Below, in pieces: positions 2,540-26,223 of a stretch of 26,327 bases of DNA (position 1 is its first letter; the number at the start of each line of letters is the position of its first letter). Source of the DNA: a virus; IMG/VR virus record IMGVR_UViG_3300028419_000029, positions 1-26,327 of that record, one strand, 5' to 3'. Made by a program: the position numbers and the translations under genes. The notes under the pieces were generated by a model. The model worked only from the letters and a program-made list of their open reading frames with translations, made no database searches and was not told where the DNA came from.

Positions 2540-5335
2540 CTATATATTTCTTGTTCTTACTTCTAATTTTGCACTTCTTGCACTTACATTACCTGCTGCA
2601 TCTAAAGCCTCTACTGTTACACCATAATCTGTATCTGGTAATAATCCACCAAATGTATAGAATGTATTAGCATCAGAAGGTGTTTGTAAAACGTTATCTA
2701 AATAAACCTTATACATAGTTACACCTGTATCATCAGTTGAAGCATCCCAAGCAACTGTAAAACCGTTAGAACCTATTAAGGTTGTTCTTAGGTTAGTTGG
2801 TATTGTAGGTGACGTTACATCTGATACACTACCAGTAGTTGCTGTAACCTCTGTAGCAGAAGATAATAAACTTTCATTACCTGCCTCATCATAAGCTGTA
2901 ACCTTTATAGCATAGCTTGTAGATTGACTTAATCCTGTAATCATTATATTGTTTTGTAAACCTAATGTAGCATATAATACACCATCTACATAAACCTTAT
3001 ACCCTGCAAGGTCTGTTTCTATATTTTGATTCCAAATCATTCTAACTCTATCTGTAAGCGTTGTTTCTATAGCTAACCCAACTACATCAGCAGGTGGTGT
3101 TACATCAACAAACTCTTCTAAATTAATATCAAAAGCAGTAATTAAGTCTAATTGACTCTTATTAGTGTTTAAGTTAGTTGTTATTTCATTTATAACGTAT
3201 GGTGCGCCATTTATAATCAATCTGTCTGCTAAAGAATATTCAAATAAGAAACTTAAAGGAAGCCTACCTTCTATCTTTAGGTTTCTTGATTCATTATTAA
3301 ACATATTTGAGATATAAGAACTATAATAGTTATTAAATAAACTATTTTCATTTACTTGCAACGTATATTCATCCACTTCTTTACCAAAGTTGATAGTTAA
3401 AGAACCATCTGAATTACTATTAGAACCTCTGTTATAAGTGCTTATAAAACTTGTTTCTTCTCTTAATCCAAACTTGTAAACATTCGTATCTACAGAAGTA
3501 TTTATCCCAAAAAATAATATAGGTTTAGGTGTTTCTGGTTCTTGGTCTTCATTAACTAACCAACCCTCACAAATATTAGTTAAATCACTATTATTCTCAT
3601 CACGAAGCCTACTAAAGTAAAGTTTCTCAAAAGGAACTTTTACATCATATTTACCTTTATCAAATACAAAGTTATTATTCTTACCATTATCTGTAGCATC
3701 AAATTTTAAATCTCCAAAATTATCTTGTTGTATTTCATTATGATTAACTAACCCAAAAGTAGAAGCATCTTCGTAATTAAAGTTTATATCTCCATATAAC
3801 TGTAATCTCTCTATATCGTAATTAAAAGTATCTACATAATTTGTTATATCCCTTTCTTGACCTGAAAGATAGTAATCGTTTAAAGGCAATATATCCATCT
3901 CTCCTGTACTGTCATCTACCTTAGCAACCAAATTAAACATCTTAAAAATACCTGTCATAAAGTCTATTACTTTCATATCTGGTACTTGCCTCATAATCTC
4001 TGCTCTCTGTGGAAAAGTATAAGCACCTTCTATTGATGGATATGTATGTGTTTTATCATTGCTACTCCAAGCACTGTCAGATATAGAAGCAGAGTAAGAA
4101 CGAGTTTCATAAAACTCATCTATAGTCATTTCTACATCATAATTAGCAACACTACCATCAGATGTTATTCTAAACCTAATATCCCAAGTCTTGTATTCTA
4201 TTGATTTTAACTCATACTGAATAGAATCAGAGCCTAAACTTGTACTTCTTTTAGATACTAATGGAGTAGTGCCATCAAATATCTCCATAGTGTATTCTAC
4301 ATCTCCAGCTATAGGGTCGTTAATAGTTACATCAAACTGTATCTCAGTTCTGTTTCTTGCTTGTTGGAAACCTTCATACCTTGTGTAAGTGTTTATAGGT
4401 AGTAATTCTTGGTCTGCACCAGAAGTATCGAAATCAGTTCTACCATTATTAGAGTAAACTATAAAAGTCTTAGAAAATGTTTCATCACCACCAACACCTT
4501 GTGTCAAAGAGCCTTTCTTGTTGTGCAATAGTAAATATAATTCATTTAACTTTGAGCCATAAACAAAACAGTCTTGTTTTATATTTATAGAATCATACTT
4601 TTCATCTATTGCTTTAAATATATGAGCAACTTTTATTGCAGGTTTTAATTGAGTGTATCTTAAACCATAATTAGCATCTGCACCACTATTGTCTTTATAA
4701 ATATTTACAGAAAAACCTTCCTGAAATTCAGTATCAGAAGTTACTCCACTACCATCATAAAACCATTTATTCTGTACAGATATTAAAGGATATATTATAT
4801 CTCTTGATATATTAGTAAACTCTTCCATAGCAGTACCATTATACTGCAATCCCTTTTTTAATCCACTACTTACATTAGATAAGTTAAATTCGTGGTCGAA
4901 TCTATTTAGATAATCTAAATCAGATAACTTATCTTCTCCTATAACATCTCCTAAACCACTCAAAGCACCAAAGAAAGTAAGATTGTAAGCATAAGGATAA
5001 CCATTCTTTATTTTAGAAGCAGTTAGTCTTATATAACCTTGCTTAAAGAATATACCATTAATAAATATTCTTGCTCTTTTCTTAATTCTTGCATCAAATG
5101 AATTTATTAGGGATGTAGAATAATAGTGTTGAAATATTCTATTATTTCTACTATTAGCAGGTACAACAAATTCTTTTGTATAATCTGTAAAAACAACATC
5201 AAACTCTTGTATGTTCTTAATAGTTTCAGTAATTTCTATAGTTTCAAAGTCAAAGAAATCTACTAATTCATAATTAGCTTCTTCGTCTATAGTATTATTA
5301 GAAGTATCAATATAAAGTTGTGTTTTTAATCTCAT
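2540..5335 (-). CDS. Large tail/baseplate protein with two C-terminal FN3 domains
   Basis: 931 aa. The N-terminal part (roughly residues 20-130) contains a pattern seen in tail-tip hub proteins of Bacteroidota phages: an 'iqeFdvvFTdyTKeFvvPAns' segment followed by a hydrophobic beta-rich region with 'GYIRL'. The middle is beta-rich and has no motif I can name. From about residue 750 there are two tandem fibronectin type III domains, each with the typical YKVYxD and 'LxxxTxYxxxVxAxDxAGN' pattern. FN3 domains in phage tails usually mediate weak carbohydrate or surface binding. Position next to the tape measure supports a role in the tail tip or adsorption apparatus. It overlaps its upstream neighbour by one base. 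I infer tail tip/hub; the exact subunit (Dit, Tal or receptor-binding) cannot be fixed. Confidence 0.7.
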   Translation of the reverse strand: MRLKTQLYIDTSNNTIDEEANYELVDFFDFETIEITETIKNIQEFDVVFTDYTKEFVVPANSRNNRIFQHYYSTSLINSFDARIKKRARIFINGIFFKQGYIRLTASKIKNGYPYAYNLTFFGALSGLGDVIGEDKLSDLDYLNRFDHEFNLSNVSSGLKKGLQYNGTAMEEFTNISRDIIYPLISVQNKWFYDGSGVTSDTEFQEGFSVNIYKDNSGADANYGLRYTQLKPAIKVAHIFKAIDEKYDSINIKQDCFVYGSKLNELYLLLHNKKGSLTQGVGGDETFSKTFIVYSNNGRTDFDTSGADQELLPINTYTRYEGFQQARNRTEIQFDVTINDPIAGDVEYTMEIFDGTTPLVSKRSTSLGSDSIQYELKSIEYKTWDIRFRITSDGSVANYDVEMTIDEFYETRSYSASISDSAWSSNDKTHTYPSIEGAYTFPQRAEIMRQVPDMKVIDFMTGIFKMFNLVAKVDDSTGEMDILPLNDYYLSGQERDITNYVDTFNYDIERLQLYGDINFNYEDASTFGLVNHNEIQQDNFGDLKFDATDNGKNNNFVFDKGKYDVKVPFEKLYFSRLRDENNSDLTNICEGWLVNEDQEPETPKPILFFGINTSVDTNVYKFGLREETSFISTYNRGSNSNSDGSLTINFGKEVDEYTLQVNENSLFNNYYSSYISNMFNNESRNLKIEGRLPLSFLFEYSLADRLIINGAPYVINEITTNLNTNKSQLDLITAFDINLEEFVDVTPPADVVGLAIETTLTDRVRMIWNQNIETDLAGYKVYVDGVLYATLGLQNNIMITGLSQSTSYAIKVTAYDEAGNESLLSSATEVTATTGSVSDVTSPTIPTNLRTTLIGSNGFTVAWDASTDDTGVTMYKVYLDNVLQTPSDANTFYTFGGLLPDTDYGVTVEALDAAGNVSARSAKLEVRTRNI

Positions 5336-9797: not shown

Positions 9798-10061
9798 ATG
9801 AAAGCAATTAAATTATTAGTAGTAGCATTAGTATTAACTTTTTCTTCTTGTGTAGAAGAATATGAACAGCCAATAGAGTGTAATAGTGATAAGGATTTCT
9901 GTGGTATAGTAGAGAGTTCTACCCTTAAAGACAATAACAGGTATGAAACATTACTTAGATTACCTTGTGGTAAAGAGTTCTGGAAGATTATAGAAACTAA
10001 TGATGAAAAAGCTAAAGGTTCTGTAATATGTGATTTAAGAGATGAGAAAATAAAACTATAA
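9798..10061 (+). CDS. Small predicted lipoprotein, 87 aa
   Basis: 87 aa. The N-terminus has a short basic part (MKAIK), a hydrophobic core (LLVVALVLTF) and a lipobox ending SSC, so Cys18 would be lipidated. After it come acidic residues (EEYEQ), typical of Bacteroidota lipoproteins exported toward the surface. Four further Cys occur in the mature part (near residues 27, 33, 53 and 76), which could form two disulfides in the periplasm. Phage-encoded lipoproteins in early-type operons often act in superinfection exclusion, but no homolog is recognised, so this role is speculation. It is the last gene of the operon and is followed by a long hairpin. Confidence 0.65.
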   Translation: MKAIKLLVVALVLTFSSCVEEYEQPIECNSDKDFCGIVESSTLKDNNRYETLLRLPCGKEFWKIIETNDEKAKGSVICDLRDEKIKL

Positions 10062-11522: not shown

Positions 11523-11550
11523 AAAAAAAGGTACTTTTTTATAGTACCTT
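11523..11550 (-). terminator. Intrinsic terminator of the GP88 accessory operon
   Basis: On the minus strand AAGGTAC (11550-11544) and GTACCTT (11534-11528) form a perfect 7-bp stem, followed by a T-run (11529-11523). It lies 13 bases after the stop codon of the last gene of the minus-strand operon. Confidence 0.75.
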
Positions 11551-13377: not shown

Positions 13378-13845
13378 ATGAAAGAAATCTGGAAAGAATA
13401 TCCTTACGACAAAAGATACAAAGTATCAAGCAAGGGAAGGTTTAAAGGACTTAAAGGTCAAATATTAAAACAATATATCGATAAGTCTGGTTATCCAATG
13501 ACTCATTTAGGTAAATATAAAATGAGGTCTCATTTATTTATAGCTGAAACATTTTTAGGTCACGTAAGATGTGGTCATAAGGTAGTTGTAGACCATATTG
13601 ACAACAATCCACAAAACAATAGAGTAGATAACCTGCAATTAGTTACACACAGGGTAAACTGCTCAAAAGATAAGAAAGATAAAACAAGTAAATATACTGG
13701 AGTGTATTTTGATGAGAATAAATACAGAGCGCAGGCTTGTTTAGGAGGTAAGACATATTTCTTAGGAAAATACGACACAGAAGAAGAAGCATACATTGCA
13801 AGGATTGATGCTCTCCACGAATACAATGAATATATTAATGAATAA
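13378..13845 (+). CDS. NUMOD4-HNH-AP2 homing endonuclease, 155 aa
   Basis: Three modules in order: NUMOD4 ('EIWKEYPYDKRYKVSSKGRF', residues 2-25), an HNH_3 nuclease with 'VVVDHIDNNPQNNRVDNLQL' (about 65-85), and a C-terminal AP2-like DNA-binding domain ('SKYTGVYFDENKYRAQACLG', 102-125, then 'FLGKYDTEEEAYIARI'). This is a standard free-standing homing endonuclease of phages. It is on the plus strand, alone, between the repeat array and a strong terminator, and points toward the end of the minus-strand replication operon. Regulation may involve the repeat array that forms its leader. Confidence 0.85.
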   Translation: MKEIWKEYPYDKRYKVSSKGRFKGLKGQILKQYIDKSGYPMTHLGKYKMRSHLFIAETFLGHVRCGHKVVVDHIDNNPQNNRVDNLQLVTHRVNCSKDKKDKTSKYTGVYFDENKYRAQACLGGKTYFLGKYDTEEEAYIARIDALHEYNEYINE

Positions 13846-13964: not shown

Positions 13965-14282
13965 TTATGCTTTTATCTTCCAACTTATCTGTTGGTGTAT
14001 TTCTTTTTCTAAACCTACTAATTCATCATCATCTAATTCAAGTTCTAATTCTCCACCATCTTCATCAGAACCAAAGTATTCTGGATATACCTCTACATCT
14101 ACATTATAATCTCTAACATCTCCTTCATAATCTAAGTCTACATAAACATCTATTTTAACGAAGATGTATTCATTGTCTGTTGTTCCAATTTCATATTCAT
14201 CTACTTTAAACACAAAGTCTCTGTCTAAAGCATCAAAGTTTTCTAATAAACTGTCTAATTTTAATTGTCCTGTAATTTTCAT
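13965..14282 (-). CDS. Highly acidic small protein, 105 aa (possible DNA mimic)
   Basis: 105 aa with 31 Asp/Glu against 9 Lys/Arg, so a net charge near -22. Acidic residues are spaced along predicted beta strands (for example YIFVKIDVYVDLDYEGDVRD and YNVDVEVYPEYFG), which differs from a disordered acidic tail. This pattern is seen in small DNA-mimic proteins that block restriction or DNA-binding enzymes, but also in unrelated phage proteins. It has its own promoter-like element and terminator, so it can be made separately from the replication genes. Start ATG at 14282 has an A-rich leader. No family is recognised. Confidence 0.65.
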   Translation of the reverse strand: MKITGQLKLDSLLENFDALDRDFVFKVDEYEIGTTDNEYIFVKIDVYVDLDYEGDVRDYNVDVEVYPEYFGSDEDGGELELELDDDELVGLEKEIHQQISWKIKA

Positions 14283-16583: not shown

Positions 16584-16758
16584 CGTTAAATAATTTATAT
16601 TGTGATTCATCTAATTCTTCCCAAAAATACAATTTGTCTATTGTGTTATTAATGTCTTTATTAATCTGCTTTCTCTTTAGTAGAAGATTATCTAATTTTG
16701 TGTGTAACTTATTTATTTTAGAGTTTATCTCTTCTAATGTGTATGTCTTGCTACTCAT
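16576..16758 (-). CDS. Small coiled-coil protein, 60 aa
   Basis: 60 aa, almost all helix with heptad-like Leu/Ile spacing (LEEINSKINKLHTKLDNLLL, then KRKQINKDINNTIDKLYF). It overlaps both neighbours by 8 bases. Function unknown; likely a dimerising accessory protein. Confidence 0.6.
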   Translation of the reverse strand: MSSKTYTLEEINSKINKLHTKLDNLLLKRKQINKDINNTIDKLYFWEELDESQYKLFNDE

Positions 16759-16909
16759 AATTCTTATATTTATCTGCCATAGTTAAATAAAACTTATCAT
16801 CTTTAGATAACTTTAAACTTAAATAATCATTCATTACATTAGTTCTCTTAACACCTCTTGGTAAATTATCTATAAGTTGTGCTAATCTCTGTATTAATAG
16901 TTTCTTCAT
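16751..16909 (-). CDS. Small basic protein, 52 aa, first gene of an early operon
   Basis: 52 codons from ATG 16909 to TAG 16751. The product is basic and helical (KKLLIQRLAQLIDNLPRGVK, then TNVMNDYLSLKLSKDDKFY). It lies 24 bases downstream of a consensus promoter and overlaps the next gene by 8 bases. Function unknown. Confidence 0.55.
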   Translation of the reverse strand: MKKLLIQRLAQLIDNLPRGVKRTNVMNDYLSLKLSKDDKFYLTMADKYKNYE

Positions 16910-16932: not shown

Positions 16933-16966
16933 CAAATCTAAGGCTTTATTTCTTATTAATTGTTAA
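16933..16966 (-). promoter_or_regulatory. Promoter TTAACA-N20-TAGATTTG
   Basis: On the minus strand TTAACA (16966-16961), 20 bases, TAGATTTG (16940-16933). Same structure as the promoter at 17955 and the plus-strand one at 25652. It feeds the small-gene, ERF and SSB operon. Confidence 0.7.
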
Positions 16967-17439: not shown

Positions 17440-17673
17440 TTATCTATCTATTCGTTCTCTAATATACTCTTTCTGCTTTTGCTCTAAATAAGCTATCTCT
17501 CTTTGCAGATAATCTAATGCTTTACGCAAGTCTTGTAATTCATCATCTTTTTTACCTGCTCTTGCTACGTATTTAAGTATGTTACCTCTGTTAAAGTTAA
17601 GAGCGTAATCTTTACACACGTCTATAATATCGTAATCTTTACCTGTTTCATAATGTAATTGTGTACTTCTCAT
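17440..17673 (-). CDS. DUF3310 (SaV-like nucleotide kinase-type) protein, 77 aa
   Basis: 77 aa made almost entirely of the DUF3310 motif: 'DYDIIDVCKDYALNFNRGNI' continuing 'LKYVARAGKK', then 'LQDLRKALDYLQREI'. The L-x-F-x-x-G-N-x-x-K-Y-x-x-R-A-G-x-K pattern is diagnostic. DUF3310 proteins are common in phage replication regions and have been called nucleotide kinase-like, with no proven role for this short form. The ATG overlaps the stop of the tiny membrane peptide gene by 4 bases. Confidence 0.85.
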   Translation of the reverse strand: MRSTQLHYETGKDYDIIDVCKDYALNFNRGNILKYVARAGKKDDELQDLRKALDYLQREIAYLEQKQKEYIRERIDR

Positions 17674-17738
17674 ATTTTTCTTGTTTTTAAGTATGCTACA
17701 ATAAATAGCACTATTAATATTATTAATACTGTTTTCAT
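17670..17738 (-). CDS. 22-aa single-membrane-span peptide
   Basis: A 22-codon gene (MKTVLIILIVLFIVAYLKTR plus KI) from ATG 17738 to TGA 17670. It overlaps the upstream stop and the downstream start by 4 bases each (ATGA at both ends), which is good evidence for real coupled translation despite its size. The product is one hydrophobic helix with a basic C-terminal end, so it would insert in the cytoplasmic membrane. A holin is normally larger; an early membrane peptide acting on a host protein is possible. Confidence 0.6.
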   Translation of the reverse strand: MKTVLIILIVLFIVAYLKTRKI

Positions 17739-17917
17739 AATTCTCTTAAATATTCTCTTATTCTTGATTCACTTAAATTAAGAATGTAAGCAATATCTTT
17801 AACAGATGCGTTATACTTTGATTTTAATAAGTTAGCTTTATTAGCTTTCTCTTGTGTTTCTGCGTTTACAATCTTTGTGTATTCTCCTGTTGCAGAGTTC
17901 CAATTTGTTCCTTTCAT
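17735..17917 (-). CDS. Small helix-turn-helix protein, 60 aa
   Basis: 60 aa. The C-terminal half 'YNASVKDIAYILNLSESRIR' plus 'EYLREL' is a typical helix-turn-helix: first helix, turn at N-L-S, recognition helix ESRIREYLR. The N-terminal 30 residues are polar. It is the first gene after a consensus promoter whose -33 element is covered by a perfect dyad, so autoregulation is plausible. Confidence 0.65.
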   Translation of the reverse strand: MKGTNWNSATGEYTKIVNAETQEKANKANLLKSKYNASVKDIAYILNLSESRIREYLREL

Positions 17918-17954: not shown

Positions 17955-17988
17955 CAAATCTACAGATTATTTTATTAATAAGTGTTAA
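17955..17988 (-). promoter_or_regulatory. Promoter TTAACA-N20-TAGATTTG
   Basis: On the minus strand TTAACA (17988-17983), 20 bases, TAGATTTG (17962-17955), 38 bases ahead of the HTH gene start. Confidence 0.7.
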
Positions 17989-17999
17989 CGAAACGTTAA
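17985..17999. promoter_or_regulatory. Operator-like dyad TTAACG-AAA-CGTTAA
   Basis: A perfect 6-bp inverted repeat with a 3-base spacer overlaps the -33 element of the promoter at 17955-17988 and the last codons of the upstream gene. A protein bound here would block that promoter. The nearest DNA-binding candidate is the 60-aa HTH protein. Confidence 0.55.
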
Positions 18000-18394
18000 A
18001 AAAGTTTTTTCATTGAAGCAAGACCTTCTTTTAGCACATAACTATACTTTGTTATCTTACTGTTTTTATTGAAGTCTGTTGTCTTAGGACACTTAAAAGG
18101 TATTGGATTACTATTTAAAATAACACCTATATTTTTAGTTATATTAAATATGTATATCCCTTTTTCATCTGTAACAACATAGATGAATATTTTGTCTTTT
18201 AATTGAGATGACTGGTAGTTCTTAAACAGTTTAAGGCATTCTATTAGCTTATCACTATAATACTTTCTTCTGTTCTTTATCTCAACAATATAATTACTAT
18301 CTTCAGCATCATAGGAACTAAAACTATCCTTACAAAGAATAAGATTAGTTCCATAGTTACTGTTTATGAAATCTATAGTTGATTTCTCGTTCAT
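17996..18394 (-). CDS. PD-(D/E)XK nuclease-like protein, 132 aa
   Basis: 132 aa. Residues 27-48 read 'SYDAEDSNYIVEIKNRRKYY', which fits the core of restriction-like nucleases: D near 29-32, then E-x-K in 'VEIKNR' on the second strand. Next comes the helix 'DKLIECLKLFK' and the strand 'KIFIYVVTDEKGIYIFNI'. The order alpha-beta-beta-alpha-beta is right for the fold. It directly follows a GIY-YIG gene, and small proteins of this kind often accompany homing endonuclease genes in phages. Substrate unknown. Confidence 0.5.
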   Translation of the reverse strand: MNEKSTIDFINSNYGTNLILCKDSFSSYDAEDSNYIVEIKNRRKYYSDKLIECLKLFKNYQSSQLKDKIFIYVVTDEKGIYIFNITKNIGVILNSNPIPFKCPKTTDFNKNSKITKYSYVLKEGLASMKKLF

Positions 18395-18397
18395 TAA

Positions 18398-18979
18398 TTA
18401 AATTCTTTCAAAAATTAGACCTTTAACTTCTTTATATATTCCTCTTAAGTGTTTTGATAAGTAGCTATTGTCTATATTGTAATACCTACCAGCTTCTCTC
18501 ACACTAAAGAACTCCTTACCATCATTAACACATCTAACACCGTGCTTTACGCACGGATTATTTTCTCTGTTTCTTTTCGATGTACTATTTGATAGTTTTT
18601 TTATGTATTCTACATTACTTCTAAAAGACTCTACTTGCTTTTTTATACTCAACGGAGTGTGATTACTAACACCTTTTCTCATTTTAGACATTTTCTTTCT
18701 TGTTTCTTCTGAGAATCTTGGATGGTCACCTCCAGAAGAAAGATTACATAAATTACTAAGTCCTATCTCTGAAATTATAAACTCTTCTAACTCTAAGGCT
18801 TCATCAATAGATAGTTTACTTGCAACAACATCAACAATGTAACCGTATTTGTTAACAGTATTAACCCAGTGATTAGTTCTTCCGTGTTTATGTTTAGCTC
18901 TTTTTAAACTACCCATACCAACATAAAAAATCTCATTATTTGTTTTTTTTCTATGCAAGTAAACTACCTTATTGTTCAT
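18398..18979 (-). CDS. GIY-YIG homing endonuclease with NUMOD DNA-binding modules, 193 aa
   Basis: The GIY-YIG domain occupies residues 1-85: 'VVYLHRKK' and 'IFYVGMGSLKRA' give the two halves (with the common V-G-M-G variant and the Arg at 27), and 'DEALELEEFIISEIG' supplies the Glu. NUMOD3-like repeats follow ('RFSEETRKKMSKMRKG', ~88-103), and the C-terminus has a NUMOD1-like helix-turn-helix ('KEFFSVREAGRYYNIDNSYL', ~154-175). A free-standing endonuclease placed one base after the metallophosphoesterase stop and three bases before the next gene. Confidence 0.85.
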   Translation of the reverse strand: MNNKVVYLHRKKTNNEIFYVGMGSLKRAKHKHGRTNHWVNTVNKYGYIVDVVASKLSIDEALELEEFIISEIGLSNLCNLSSGGDHPRFSEETRKKMSKMRKGVSNHTPLSIKKQVESFRSNVEYIKKLSNSTSKRNRENNPCVKHGVRCVNDGKEFFSVREAGRYYNIDNSYLSKHLRGIYKEVKGLIFERI

Positions 18980-19733: not shown

Positions 19734-20433
19734 ACTGTTTGATTTTTTTTACGTTAGTTACTAATTTTAACATTTTTTTACATTCATTAAATTTATCTTT
19801 AGCTTCATCTTTATAGAACTCTAAAAATAAACTATAAACTCTTCTGATTAAAGCAAACTCTGTTTTAGCACCTTTAAGTATTTTATGTGCTTTAGCTTTA
19901 CCATAACCTTTAAAGTATTTTACATTATCAGCAGTATCTCCCATTATCATTTGATGATAAAAGTTATACTTAGCCTCAAAATCTTCTATCTTAACCAACT
20001 CTCTTCTGGAGTAGTAAGTATCAAAAAACCAACAAGGAAATTGCTTGTAGTCTTTATCATTAGCAGCGATAATTACATTATTCTCACCTAATTCATCGCA
20101 AGATTGTTTCCATAAGGTAGCAACAACATCATCTGTTTCATAACCATCAACCCAATAAGAATTAAACTCTTTTTTTACGTGATTATGTAACTCTGACAAA
20201 AATGCAGGTCTTTCTTGTGTTCTATTAGCCTTGTATTGCTTATTTAAAGCCACTCTAAAGTTGTTTTTAGAGCCATTGCATATCCAAATATCATCGAACT
20301 CACAAATGTCGCTTAAATCCTTTAAAACGTAGCCTAAATAGTTATCAAACTTATTCTTAGCCTCATCTAATGTTTCTACATTAAAACAAGCTGAATAAAT
20401 TAAAGAATCTGCATCTAATATTAGTCTGATAAC
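19702..20433 (-). pseudogene. 5'-3' exonuclease (FEN/PIN family), start codon lost to an HNH insertion
   Basis: The frame is open from 20433 to 19702 and encodes a T5/T7-type 5'-3' exonuclease: 'LILDADSLIYSACF' with the first metal Asp, 'YKANR', 'GYETDDVVATL' (E-x-D-D), 'ANDKDYKQF', and the H3TH motif 'MGDTADNVKYFKGYGKAKAH'. Such enzymes remove RNA primers and flaps. The codons before LILD are TAA GTT ATC AGA CTA, with no ATG, GTG or TTG until GTG at 20253, which lies after the first active-site Asp. The missing 'ATG CGA TTA ATA TTA GAT' is found 629 bases upstream, at the start of the HNH frame. The gene was therefore split at codon 6-7. It is either inactive or started in an unusual way; the lack of any decay in the rest of the frame suggests recent insertion or remaining expression. 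Confidence 0.75.
20412..20423. repeat. Direct repeat copy 2 (TAATATTAGATG) at the HNH insertion
   Basis: The 12-bp sequence CATCTAATATTA (plus strand) is identical to 21041-21052. It encodes part of the exonuclease N-terminus and marks the downstream border of the inserted HNH gene. Confidence 0.8.
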
Positions 20434-21038
20434 TTACCTCCTTTCTTTAAATTATCTTCAGCCCATAAGGGTTGTAAATTAGTGTAATGACATAATCTAA
20501 TTAATTCTTCTTCTGTGTTAGCAGATGATAGTGGCACTATATGGTCTATATGCCATTCAGACCTGTTATCCCAATTCATACCAGTTGTAAATTGATTTTC
20601 TAAGTGTATTTTTAAACCATAATAATCAATACCTATTATCTCGTGTGTTTTACTTTTCTTAGTGTAACCTCTTTTTTTTAATGCCCTTGAAGTATATGTT
20701 GATATATCACGCCTTAATCTGTATAGAATATCCGTTTTTTTTCGCTCTCTATTCCTTTTGTTTATTCTCTGTTTATTTTCTTGATACCACTTCTTACTAT
20801 ACTCACTTTGGTATTTAGCTAAACTTTCTTTGTTTTTTTTACGATATTCCTTATTTCTCTTACTTAATCTCTCTTTGTTTTTTAACCAATAATCTTTATT
20901 ATATTTATCTCTCTTTTCAATATCCCTTGATAACGAATCACATTTTTTACAAGAAGGTCTATACCCATCTTTAAATATTTTACCCTTATAAAATAAGGAG
21001 AAACTTTTTAGTTCTTTGCATTTACTGCATTTTTTCAT
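20421..21038 (-). CDS. HNH homing endonuclease inserted in the exonuclease gene
   Basis: The frame is open from ATG 21059, but the first seven codons (MRLILDE) are the captured start of the exonuclease. The genuine HNH start is likely ATG 21038 (MKKCSKCKELKSF). Residues 4-30 form a CxxC...CxxC zinc finger. The middle is a long basic region of Lys/Arg/Asn-rich repeats. The C-terminal HNH nuclease is clear: 'EWHIDHIVPLSSANTEEELI', then 'LCHYTNLQPLWAEDNLKKGG'. The product is about 205 aa. It ends with TAA at 20423-20421, inside the repeated 12-bp sequence. Translation may start at either ATG; the upstream one uses the old exonuclease leader. Confidence 0.85.
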   Translation of the reverse strand: MKKCSKCKELKSFSLFYKGKIFKDGYRPSCKKCDSLSRDIEKRDKYNKDYWLKNKERLSKRNKEYRKKNKESLAKYQSEYSKKWYQENKQRINKRNRERKKTDILYRLRRDISTYTSRALKKRGYTKKSKTHEIIGIDYYGLKIHLENQFTTGMNWDNRSEWHIDHIVPLSSANTEEELIRLCHYTNLQPLWAEDNLKKGGKLSD

Positions 21039-21040
21039 TT

Positions 21041-21052
21041 CATCTAATATTA
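21041..21052. repeat. Direct repeat copy 1 (TAATATTAGATG) at the HNH insertion
   Basis: Identical 12 bp to 20412-20423, 629 bases apart. It carries codons 3-7 of the original exonuclease start, which begins at ATG 21059-21057. Confidence 0.8.
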
Positions 21053-21060
21053 ATCGCATC

Positions 21061-21528: not shown

Positions 21529-21755
21529 AATTTGTTATAATAATGTTTATATGCTTCTAATATTGTTTCGTAAATCTTTTCTTTCTCTTTCTTTGTCTTT
21601 TGCTTGAAGATTGTAGTACCTTTTCTTCTTGTTATCAACTTTCCGTTCTCTATGTTGTAAACATCTATTCTTACATCTTGCATACTGTTGACTACTACTG
21701 GTGATATAAATATACCATTAATCCAACAATCTCTAACCTCTTTACAATTTATCAT
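21525..21755 (-). CDS. Hypothetical protein, 76 aa
   Basis: 76 aa, beginning 'MINCKEVRDCWINGIFISPV' and containing a beta part (VRIDVYNIENGKLITRRKGT) and a C-terminal helix (TKKEKEKIYETILEAYKHYY). Overlaps both neighbours (14 bases with the sigma-like gene, 4 bases downstream). No recognised family. Confidence 0.6.
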   Translation of the reverse strand: MINCKEVRDCWINGIFISPVVVNSMQDVRIDVYNIENGKLITRRKGTTIFKQKTKKEKEKIYETILEAYKHYYNKL

Positions 21756-22311
21756 AATCGCCGTTAAAAAAATCCTCTATATTTTCCTTGTATTTTTCTC
21801 TTAACTCTTTCTTTAGTTTCTTTAACTTCTCAGACACAGAATACTTTGTTACATTGGCATCATCAGATATTTTCTGTTGAGATAGTTTTTCTTTAGAGAA
21901 GTAAGATACATTACTATTAATAGGTACTCTATAATACAATTCAAATAACTTTTGTATAAATTGGTCTTTCTTAGACAAATCCTTTCTTATATCGTTTATA
22001 ATGTCTTCTAACGCTGCATCTCTTGCATAATCATAATTAACATCTTCTGGTAAATCTAATTCATCATTAAGTAATAAAGAATCAGTTAATAGTTTCTTTC
22101 TTTTAATGTCTATGAATAAGTTTTTTAAAGTCATATAGATATAGTATTTATTTATATCATCTTGACCATATTTAAACTTATCTTTATTCTCTACCTTAGA
22201 AATCTTTAAGTACATTTCCTGTACTATGTCTTGTGCATCTTGGTAATTACAACCAAAGTTAATACAGCACTTCATCCATAAACTGTGTAATTCTGCTACC
22301 TTATCTAACAT
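21742..22311 (-). CDS. RNA polymerase sigma-70-like (ECF-type) factor, 189 aa
   Basis: 189 aa. Region 2 is visible at residues ~8-80: 'LHSLWMKCCINFGCNYQDAQ', 'DIVQEMYLKI' and 'YYIYMTLKNLFIDIKRKK', the R-N-x-x-x-D-x-x-R-x-x-like 2.3/2.4 part. A linker with acidic residues follows. Region 4 is at the C-terminus ('EKLSQQKISDDANVTKYSVS' plus 'EKLKKLKKELREKY'), a helix-turn-helix for the -35 element. It is smaller than primary sigma factors and fits phage-encoded factors that redirect host RNA polymerase to late genes. Late genes in this window lack the TAnnTTTG consensus, which agrees. It overlaps its neighbours by 11 and 14 bases. Confidence 0.75.
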   Translation of the reverse strand: MLDKVAELHSLWMKCCINFGCNYQDAQDIVQEMYLKISKVENKDKFKYGQDDINKYYIYMTLKNLFIDIKRKKLLTDSLLLNDELDLPEDVNYDYARDAALEDIINDIRKDLSKKDQFIQKLFELYYRVPINSNVSYFSKEKLSQQKISDDANVTKYSVSEKLKKLKKELREKYKENIEDFFNGDYDKL

Positions 22312-23534: not shown

Positions 23535-24752
23535 CTATCTTATGTGGTAAATTCCTGAACTTTTACCCTGAACCAAATACATCATAGCATATCTAATAGC
23601 ATCAATAAAGTGGTTAAACTTATCTATAGGTACAGTACCTTTATCTTTCCAAGCATAGTTGTTTACTTCCTTAATAATACCTGTACTTTCTTTATCTATA
23701 ATCCATTCATAGTCTTGTATTAAAGCTATACCACTTAATATACTACCTGCTTTCTTAATAGTAGGTTTAATATTTAGTCCTGCATTCTTTAACTCTCTTA
23801 CAAGTCTTGGTTCTGAATTATCACAAATGATTAAGCTATTACCTGCATAAGCCTTATTAAGTCTTATTATATCAGTTGTAGATAGATTAGGTTTACCATA
23901 ACACTCTTTTATCCAAACCTTTCTTTCAGGTACATCTACAGCTACCTTAACTAATGTAGTATCATCTAAAGAGAAACCAAAATCTTGCCCATAACAAGTT
24001 ATATCTGTTTCCCTAAACTCTCCTGCTCTCCAATTCTTTATAATAACACCCTCTGCCTTTTCTTTCCAACCTCCTAAGATTTGGTGTAAGTATTTACTTG
24101 GGTTATTCTTTTTAGTCTTGTAAATAGTCTGTAAGAAAGAATCAGGTAAATTAGCCTTATTGTCTTTATAAGTAGTATGTATGTATGTAACACCTTTCTT
24201 TGTTAAATTACTTCCATCAGTAACTAAAGCATCTCTAAAGAACCTCTTATAAATCCAATGCTCTTTAGTCGCAGGGTTTAATATTAAGATAACCCTATTC
24301 TGTTTAGTAATTGCTCTAACAGATAAATCTATCTTATCAAACGTTTCTTCATCATCTAATTCTTCTGCTTCATCAACAACGAATGTAGTAATACCATTAA
24401 GAGATTTTAGAGCAGCTGTTTGATTTGAACTACTTGTCCTTATACCCTTGAAAATTATAGATGAGCCTGTTTTTAGGTTGTATATTTCATCTTTAGTAAC
24501 TCTAAAATCTTGACCTTTACCCATTAAATCTATCTTTTCAACAAACTCTGGTATAATAGAGGTGTGTGCTGATGTTAAGGTATATCTTGTAAATAATACC
24601 TTGTGTCCTTCTTCGTAAGTTAAAGTTAGTAATCTTAATGAAACACTAAAAGACTTAGAACTTCCCCTTCCACCAGAAACTATAAAGTATCTACTATCAG
24701 AAGTCCATAGTGGTTTGTACTTGTCGCAAATTTTTATATCTTTCTTAGCCAT
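23535..24752 (-). CDS. terL: Terminase large subunit
   Basis: 405 aa packaging motor. The ATPase domain has Walker A 'SGGRGSSKSF' (residues ~27-36), Walker B 'FVVDEAEEL' (~119-127) and a coupling-type 'ILNPATKEHW' motif. The nuclease domain starts near residue 245 with 'CYGQDFGFSLDDTTLVKVAV' (first catalytic Asp), then 'LIICDNSEPR' and 'FNHFIDAIRYAMMY' (last Asp). The layout matches Terminase_3/PBSX-type large subunits and the length is complete. It overlaps the upstream HNH gene by 8 bases, so its translation is now coupled to that gene. Confidence 0.95.
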   Translation of the reverse strand: MAKKDIKICDKYKPLWTSDSRYFIVSGGRGSSKSFSVSLRLLTLTYEEGHKVLFTRYTLTSAHTSIIPEFVEKIDLMGKGQDFRVTKDEIYNLKTGSSIIFKGIRTSSSNQTAALKSLNGITTFVVDEAEELDDEETFDKIDLSVRAITKQNRVILILNPATKEHWIYKRFFRDALVTDGSNLTKKGVTYIHTTYKDNKANLPDSFLQTIYKTKKNNPSKYLHQILGGWKEKAEGVIIKNWRAGEFRETDITCYGQDFGFSLDDTTLVKVAVDVPERKVWIKECYGKPNLSTTDIIRLNKAYAGNSLIICDNSEPRLVRELKNAGLNIKPTIKKAGSILSGIALIQDYEWIIDKESTGIIKEVNNYAWKDKGTVPIDKFNHFIDAIRYAMMYLVQGKSSGIYHIR

Positions 24753-25218
24753 TTATTTCCTTTAATTTATTCTCGTAGGTTAAATGTGCATCGTATTCAT
24801 TATTAAACCTACCTAAGTTTTTTTGTTTACCATTAATTTTTATTGAAGCAACCCATTTACTCCTCGACTTATCCCAACAAACACCTGTATATTTACTTGA
24901 CGATTTGATTTTTGAGGTGTAGTTTTCTCTATTACGTCTTGGAGATACTTCTCTTAAATTATCAAGATTGTTATTAGATTTATCTCCATCAATATGGTCT
25001 ATAACTAAATGTTTATTCTTACCTGTAGATTTATGGTTTAAAAATACCATAGCTACCAATTTATGAACCTTATAGCATTTACCATCAAGCCTTAATTGAT
25101 AATACCCATCAGAATTTAATGATGGTTTTAAAAACCTATCAGATTTATAACTATAAACTCTACCCTTGTTACTAACACTGTAATCACTATGTCCTTCGAC
25201 TATTCTAAATTTTTCCAT
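24745..25218 (-). CDS. NUMOD4-HNH-AP2 homing endonuclease between the terminase genes
   Basis: The start at ATG 25218 (MEKFRIVEGHSDYSVSNKGR) is chosen over the upstream ATG 25233 because NUMOD4 proteins begin this way. Modules: NUMOD4 (residues 1-22), HNH_3 with 'HLVIDHIDGDKSNNNLDNLR' (~75-95) and AP2 with 'SKYTGVCWDKSRSKWVASIK' (~111-130) then 'NLGRFNNEYDAHLTY'. It has the same architecture as the plus-strand HNH at 13378 but is clearly diverged from it. Its last codons overlap the terL start. Insertion next to terL is common for such enzymes because the target is conserved. Confidence 0.85.
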   Translation of the reverse strand: MEKFRIVEGHSDYSVSNKGRVYSYKSDRFLKPSLNSDGYYQLRLDGKCYKVHKLVAMVFLNHKSTGKNKHLVIDHIDGDKSNNNLDNLREVSPRRNRENYTSKIKSSSKYTGVCWDKSRSKWVASIKINGKQKNLGRFNNEYDAHLTYENKLKEING

Positions 25219-25245: not shown

Positions 25246-25638
25246 TTAATCTTCATCATCTACCTCTTTATGTTCTACATCAATAGTCTTTTCCTCTAAT
25301 GTTGGATTACTACTCCCAAAGAAGTTAATTACAGGTGCATTATTAGTAACAGGCTTAACATCCTTTTCATCATCATAAGCATAGTCAAATAACATCTTAT
25401 AAGCATTTACATTACCTGTATCTTTAGCTTTCTTAGCAAGTGCTTCAAATGCTTCTACTTCACTACCAAATACATTCTTTAATGCTTTCTTAGCGTATTG
25501 CTTAGTTCTTTTCTTCTTAGCATAATTCTTTGCAGGAACATTACTACGTTCTCTATCTGGTACTTTACTTAATGGTATTGATTTCTTCCTACTGTTATTT
25601 CTTCTACCATCATTTGGTTTTATTTCTTCTGACTTCAT
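25246..25638 (-). CDS. Probable small terminase subunit, 130 aa
   Basis: The frame is open to 25728, but the ATG at 25638 is preferred because the N-terminal extension would overlap a strong plus-strand promoter and looks non-coding. The product starts MKSEEIKPNDGRRNNSRKKS, a basic tail, followed by a helical core 'ALKNVFGSEVEAFEALAKKA' and 'GNVNAYKMLFDYAYDDEKDV', and an acidic C-terminus. The 'A-x-x-K-D-x-G-N-x-x-A-Y-K-x-L-F-D-Y' pattern fits small terminase or terminase-associated proteins of Bacteroidota phages. Its position upstream of terL supports this. Confidence 0.6.
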   Translation of the reverse strand: MKSEEIKPNDGRRNNSRKKSIPLSKVPDRERSNVPAKNYAKKKRTKQYAKKALKNVFGSEVEAFEALAKKAKDTGNVNAYKMLFDYAYDDEKDVKPVTNNAPVINFFGSSNPTLEEKTIDVEHKEVDDED

Positions 25639-25651
25639 ATTTAACGTTTTC

Positions 25652-25685
25652 TTAACATTACTTAAATAAATAATACTTATATTTG
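25652..25685 (+). promoter_or_regulatory. Plus-strand promoter TTAACA-N20-TATATTTG
   Basis: TTAACA at 25652-25657, 20-base spacer, TATATTTG at 25678-25685. It has the same geometry as the minus-strand promoters at 16933 and 17955 but reads away from all protein genes, toward a perfect terminator 56 bases downstream. Confidence 0.65.
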
Positions 25686-25690
25686 CATAG

Positions 25691-25774
25691 AGATTGTTTT
25701 TAATGCTAACAAATCTGTTAGTTTTCATAGGTTGTCAGAGATAGGGTCATACAAGGTATGGCTCTATTTTTTTT
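25691..25774 (+). ncRNA. Candidate small RNA of about 84 nt
   Basis: A transcription unit with promoter and terminator but no protein gene. The RNA would begin near 25691. It has a 6-bp hairpin GCTAAC/GTTAGT (25705-25710 with 25717-25722, 6-base loop), a single-stranded link (25723-25740) and the terminator hairpin. It is in the intergenic gap between the u-spanin-like gene and the small terminase gene, antisense to the minus-strand message that spans this gap. Confidence 0.6.
25741..25774 (+). terminator. Strong intrinsic terminator of the small RNA
   Basis: ATAGGGTCATAC (25741-25752) pairs fully, with two wobbles, with GTATGGCTCTAT (25756-25767); the loop is AAG, and a run of eight T (25767-25774) follows. 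On the minus strand there is no T-tract after the hairpin, so it works in the plus direction. Confidence 0.85.
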
Positions 25775-25779
25775 ATACA

Positions 25780-26223
25780 CTAAAAGAACTTAATCCTTAC
25801 TAAAAGAATAATAACTATAGCTTGGAAGATTATTGTTATCCACATCCAAAGAGGTGTCTTAAACTTAACCACTTCCTTACTACTCTCTTTTAATAGTTTT
25901 TCATACTTTACTTTATAAGTTTTATCTAATATACTCTTATATCCGTTTAAATCAATTTTAGCTGTTATACTATCGTTTTTACCTTCTATTAGTATTGAGC
26001 CTTGCTTTATCTTTAAAACTTGCTTAAAAGGCTTTAAATTACCTAAACTATCACAAGGTTCTTCAACAGTTAATGTGTCTGTATAACGTTCTACTTCTTT
26101 TATCGTTCGAGTGGTGAAAATCGTATCTTTGACAACCCTATCTTTATACTCTGTAACAATCTTTTTAGAAGTACAACCGAATACAATAAAACCAATAGTA
26201 AAAAAAAATAAAACCTTTTTCAT
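25780..26223 (-). CDS. Lipoprotein with C-terminal membrane anchor (u-spanin-like), 147 aa
   Basis: 147 aa. N-terminal signal with lipobox: 'KKVLFFFTIGFIVFGC', so Cys17 would be lipidated and held in the outer membrane. The C-terminal segment 'LWMWITIIFQAIVIILLV' (about 125-142) is a transmembrane helix ending in a basic RIKFF. The middle is a charged periplasmic rod with coiled-coil and strand character. This is exactly the architecture of a unimolecular spanin, which links both membranes and fuses them in the last step of lysis. The gene follows the M15 endolysin gene by a TAATG overlap, the right place for a spanin. Function rests on architecture and context, as no sequence motif is diagnostic. 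Confidence 0.65.
   Translation of the reverse strand: MKKVLFFFTIGFIVFGCTSKKIVTEYKDRVVKDTIFTTRTIKEVERYTDTLTVEEPCDSLGNLKPFKQVLKIKQGSILIEGKNDSITAKIDLNGYKSILDKTYKVKYEKLLKESSKEVVKFKTPLWMWITIIFQAIVIILLVRIKFF

Follow-up and report, generated by a model that had tools for sequence, protein, structure and literature searches.

The minus-strand gap of 141 bases between the lysis and terminase genes of this phage raises the question of whether its plus strand carries a gene for a small RNA and, if so, on what such an RNA might act. The window, the whole 26,327-nucleotide stretch analysed here, is a virus contig from a phage of a marine flavobacterium; its nearest relatives are phages known from metagenomes, and seawater Nonlabens phages stand at 50% TerL identity. 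On the minus strand, the genes run in the order M15 endolysin (an assignment made on L102), a small lipoprotein-like gene in the Rz position (25780..26223; PHROG 30696, a family of unknown function), the gap that holds the unit, a putative terS (25246..25638), an HNH endonuclease gene (24745..25215), and terL (23535..24752; PHROG 2, E 2.9e-47). The terminase small subunit was named by position only, since in relatives it stands directly before TerL; a family search with its product gave no match, and no TerS homologues were found in annotated phages or genome contigs. An N-terminal extension of TerS to 25728 (a 160-aa frame) was rejected as spurious, since the relatives start at MKSEE and have no such in-frame start. 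The HNH gene is likely a homing-endonuclease insertion and is absent from three TerS-bearing relatives (L004, L006, and L011); other endonuclease-like genes were recognized by eye at 13378-13845, 18398-18979, and 20421-21059. A DNA search of cultured phages matched only the end of the Rz-like gene of Polaribacter phage P12002S.

Judged by its sequence, the segment TTTAACGTTTTCTTAACA-N20-TATATTTG (25640-25685, plus strand) is a Bacteroidota-type (sigma-ABfr) promoter. The upstream block TTTAACGTTTTCTTAACA occupies 25640..25657, with TTAACA (25652-25657) in the -33 position, and a 20-base spacer separates TTAACA from the -7 element TATATTTG at 25678..25685. The -7 consensus measured in Flavobacterium johnsoniae is TAHHTTTG, with the start 4-5 nt beyond (PMC6847099), and TATATTTG fits it. 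The window holds four copies of the arrangement TTAACA-N18-22-TANNTTTG, where chance would give 0.21, and none of 100 shuffles reached that count. Three of the four combine N20 with TANATTTG, namely the unit promoter and two nearly identical minus-strand sites of the form TTAACA-N20-TAGATTTG, at 17955..17988 (preceding gene 17735-17917) and 16933..16966 (preceding gene 16751-16909). In an exact-match search that allowed two free positions, the extended block TTTAACGTTTNNTTAACA was found in the window only at the unit and at 17983-18000 on the minus strand, before a phage gene. The original prediction had described a promoter of the phage's own early type. In this, "early" is an inference; the sibling promoters sit among replication and recombination genes (Erf-like protein, exonuclease, resolvase). 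Elsewhere in the window, 21742-22311 scored 19.7 bits against sigma-70 region 2, short of the cut-off of 24, and a gene of the same region in phage P12024L is annotated as of sigma-70 region 2 type; a phage sigma factor encoded there could drive the late promoters.

An intrinsic terminator lies downstream on the same strand (25741..25774). Its arms, ATAGGGTCATAC (25741-25752) and GTATGGCTCTAT (25756-25767), enclose the loop AAG (25753-25755) and form 12 pairs, two of which are G-U pairs that also suit the plus-strand RNA; eight T follow (25767-25774), the first of which also closes the stem. The predicted string of TTAACA-N20-TATATTTG, 12-bp stem, three-base loop, and eight T is therefore all in place, and the gap from the -7 element to the stem, given as 56 bases, comes to about 55 by coordinates. 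When the segment was dinucleotide-shuffled 2000 times, only 1 shuffle matched the terminator in strength, and the opposite strand has none. A generic terminator scan overlooked the hairpin, since part of the T run is taken up in A-U pairs. A further hairpin at 11528-11550, symmetric, T-rich on both sides, and placed between convergent genes, is a possible bidirectional terminator.

Since starts fall 4-5 nt after the -7 element (PMC6847099), the predicted RNA begins at 25690 or 25691 and, ending at the T run, is 84-85 nt long (25690..25774, plus strand). A 92-nt segment folds better than its shuffles (z -4.8). Near the 5' end, the element AUUGUUUUUAA (25693..25703, plus strand) is mostly single-stranded and is a candidate site for pairing to UUAAAAACAA leaders or for a chaperone; within the predicted fold, UUGUUUU has a mean unpaired probability of 0.75. 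An internal 7-bp hairpin, GCUAACA-AAUC-UGUUAGU (25705..25722, plus strand), belongs to the window type only and does not occur in L004, L006, or L011. A protein-coding unit was considered and rejected: the sole plus-strand ATG frame has 13 codons (25703-25744), and the three relatives lack the same frame. The claim that no protein gene lies between promoter and terminator is upheld, and the region holds none of the conserved protein frame that would have spoken against an RNA. The unit has its own promoter, its own terminator on the same strand, and no conserved protein frame, three generic marks of a small-RNA gene. Rfam at the gathering score gave no match for the window and 20 relatives, lax thresholds gave chance-level matches only, FopS among these, and a tRNA/tmRNA search of the window found none.

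Eleven other records encode relatives of TerS at 79-100% identity, and a twelfth encodes a fragment. L001-L003 are identical to the window; the identity is 98% for L004/L005, 92% for L006, 89% for L008-L010, and 79% for L011. The -7 element TATATTTG is kept at nearly equal distance from terS in L004/L005, L006, and L011. The RNA body, the terminator sequence, and the adjoining lysis gene are all replaced in L004, L006, and L011 relative to the window (L006 and L011 have related lysis genes). Each of these three has a strong plus-strand terminator just past the lysis-gene stop, equalled by 0 of 2000 shuffles and with none on the opposite strand. L008-L010 have neither promoter nor terminator, although their terminase genes are the same, so that the two signals are gained or lost jointly. 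The near-identity of the L004 and L006 promoter blocks is partly due to a recently shared terS side, which leaves L011 as the only informative record on conservation of the -7 element. Among more distant TerL relatives (57-71%), the unit is absent save for a possible case in L045. One further relative, the 38635-base G001 (L100, L101), has both ends mapping to overlapping parts of window gene 4305-4443, which suggests a circularly permuted, near-complete genome. The compact unit for an RNA of about 84 nt is strongly supported by the sequence signals together with these relatives, and as a sequence feature the small-RNA gene has good support; the differing RNA bodies of L004, L006, L011, and the window, and the dispensability of the unit in L008-L010, count against that reading.

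The same comparison bears on the idea that the unit is an insulator or a promoter remnant, left by an emptied moron or a convergent gene, in which the promoter would fire, the terminator would protect the late operon, and the RNA would have no role. The unconserved body and the records that manage without the unit fit this idea, and a real convergent gene does occupy this place in some relatives of the Rz-like gene (L107, L109, L116, L123, L125, and L128). Against it, TATATTTG is kept from 100% down to 79% TerS identity alongside four different strong terminators, which suggests upkeep, as does the recurrence described below of units with a common UUGUUUU element. We consider a remnant rather unlikely.

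We scanned loci of related phages, about 1 Mb in all, for further units. Since these loci had been picked out by their lysis and terminase genes, a preference for that place remains unproven. Pairs of TATATTTG and a strong terminator within 130 bases numbered 27, while none of six shuffled sets contained any; a few of the hits are probably ordinary gene ends. Of the 91 non-redundant strong terminators, 16 were preceded on the same strand by TATATTTG at a distance of 120 nt or less, and the controls at the same terminators gave 1 (opposite), 0 (reversed), and 2 (complemented). In many units, the body is rich in U and holds no frame. The element UUGUUUU was present in 11 of 17 units, compared with 2.9 in shuffled bodies (maximum, 8), and in 15 of 92 stretches preceding other terminators. 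Given the enrichment of 16 among 91 over controls of 0-2, compact orphan units whose U-rich body bears UUGUUUU constitute a recurrent class. Sense-direction units follow lysis genes in L141, L171, L181, and L185, and in the cultured Nonlabens phage P12024L one lies at 9826-9900, between holin and gp16. These five resemble the window unit in having TATATTTG (TATCTTTG in L185), a frameless U-rich body, and a strong terminator beside the lysis module; they differ from it in their sense orientation and their sequences, and are grouped here by build.

The scanned loci held several variants. A sense unit with TATATTTG and a U-rich body lies 265-310 nt after holin in L181, L186, L188, L194, L195, and L198, and the same holin-downstream unit has the variant -7 element TATCTTTG in L185, L187, and L192; both types end in terminator AGAAGGAGGGTCTAAAAGCTCTCCTTTT or AGAGAGCTTGTAAAAAGGCTCTCT. 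Similar small sense units occur about 300 nt past the lysis gene in L141, L142, L144, and L153, sharing AUUGAUUA and terminator AAATAGAGGTCAGAAATGGCTTCTATTT; the -7 element of L153 is TATATTTA. In L158 and L159, a promoter-like TGTATATTTG stands on the antisense strand right after the lysis gene (stop, 1920), followed by a strongly folding region of about 180 nt whose ends pair (AGTTCTTTG/CAAAGAACT). This region, which had no match in Rfam or the tRNA/tmRNA search, is possibly a larger structured RNA. In L116 and L125, TATATTTG is antisense after the Rz-like gene and precedes a conserved 50-aa frame, MKATIKNSSKNKSKYDNVYFDFTINGHLFENVERSEVRHLIEILDNGIGV, that overlaps the lysis stop.

The neighbouring genes are read from the minus strand, which places the unit antisense to any transcript running from lysis to terS, as the original prediction had it. 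A cis-antisense RNA of the P22 sar or lambda OOP kind would pair with this late mRNA and trigger its cleavage or lower terS expression. By position, complementarity is perfect over about 85 nt, the antisense placement is found in the window, L004, L006, and L011, and phage precedents are known. P22 sar resembles the window unit in that it is short, runs antisense to an intercistronic region, and has a promoter and terminator of its own; lambda OOP, a phage antisense transcript of 77 nt, likewise has both signals. The likeness to sar is one of layout. However, sar represses ant translation and OOP covers the cII 3' end and leads to RNase III cutting, whereas the window RNA covers no translation start and overlaps no coding sequence. 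The RNA is encoded opposite its would-be target transcript and lacks the overlap with a translation start or coding end that marks the sar and OOP type. It lies wholly inside the gap (25690-25774), ending 5 bases short of the Rz-like stop (25780-25782) and starting about 50 nt before the terS ATG (25638). The terS start would be covered only if the gene began at 25728, a frame start that L004 and L006 lack. In other flavophages, similarly built units are sense-oriented after lysis genes. With no translation start or coding end covered, an orientation that varies, and a body that is freely exchanged, the antisense geometry stands and a purely cis-antisense function is weakened; we regard it as unlikely, if still worth weighing. 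In our literature search, antisense RNAs beside terminase genes were not found.

Two other readings take their cue from the terminase genes. The activity of the promoter itself might matter, through DNA opening for a replication or packaging site or through transcriptional interference with terS, with the RNA as a by-product; the unit does sit at the terS boundary, and the lambda OOP promoter affects replication regulation apart from its RNA (PMC12197685). This is improbable, positive evidence being absent and the unit missing in L008-L010 beside the same terminase genes. The suggestion of a packaging RNA as in phi29 found no support and has almost no chance of being correct. The phi29 pRNA is likewise small and phage-encoded, and size and a terminase-adjacent position are all that recommend the comparison. 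Nevertheless, it belongs to a different packaging system: the TerL here is canonical (PHROG 2), not a phi29-type packaging ATPase, the window RNA has no match to any Rfam family, the packaging-RNA family included, neither body nor fold is conserved, and L008-L010 again do without the unit.

We return to the RNA itself and its exposed 5' part. Our preferred reading, held with about even confidence, is that the stretch is a phage small-RNA gene whose product would probably act by base pairing, most likely in trans, with A-rich translation leaders as its targets. The host primary sigma factor (sigma-ABfr type) would start transcription at about 25690, and RNA polymerase would make about 85 nt before halting at the intrinsic terminator. 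The U-rich 5' part could then pair in trans with A-rich leaders, the candidates in the window being the UUAAAAACAA-type leaders before 13965-14282 and 17440-17673. The terminator hairpin would give stability and perhaps chaperone binding, as in the FopS sRNAs of Bacteroides. Perfect pairing with the intercistronic lysis-terS mRNA may add a secondary cis effect, an RNase III cut between lysis and terS.

The leader motif TTA3-6CAA, complementary to UUGUUUU, occurs in 28 of 513 flavophage leaders, compared with 9.6 after shuffling (maximum, 17), and in 5 of 43 leaders of the window, compared with 0.98. The match between UUGUUUU and the leaders was noticed before it was tested, and could come from an overall abundance of U and A or from a site bound by a protein. 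Over the whole body, the pairing energy of the RNA with the window's gene leaders was no better than that of shuffled bodies (P 0.17). On account of this null result and the post hoc motif match, action in trans is offered as a hypothesis. Its extension to the class, in which recurrent sRNA genes of flavobacterial phages, usually beside the lysis module, would act as anti-leader regulators by pairing UUGUUUU with A-rich UUAAAACAA leaders, is a speculative and, in our judgement, doubtful proposal; UUAAAACAA leaders are used for translation in these genomes, which are free of Shine-Dalgarno sequences.

The closest known system in build is the FopS family of Bacteroides (Rfam RF04319), whose members bind near start codons, are in some cases antisense, and include a sequence reported in a Caudovirales phage of Bacteroides (PMC11697453). 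Like the window RNA, FopS RNAs have a sigma-ABfr promoter, begin with a single-stranded 5' part, and end in an intrinsic terminator, within about 70-85 nt. In a comparison with the FopS R1 seed, UGUUUUU aligned near the 5' end, with local body similarity at P 0.14 for the window and 0.013 for L006. Nevertheless, the covariance score in a 101-base search was 16.6 bits (E 1.1), below the gathering score of 56, and on this evidence the window RNA is not a member of FopS. Small RNAs of Bacteroidota phages were sparsely covered in the literature that we searched; the closest case was the FopS-like sequence in that one Bacteroides phage.

The recurrence of compact units in flavobacterial phages is the most interesting outcome of this analysis. 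The recurrent and easily recognised promoter-terminator signature points to a specific set of candidate sRNA genes, which includes the unit at 9826-9900 of the cultured Nonlabens phage P12024L, and makes RNA-based regulation of translation by phages of Shine-Dalgarno-less hosts directly testable.
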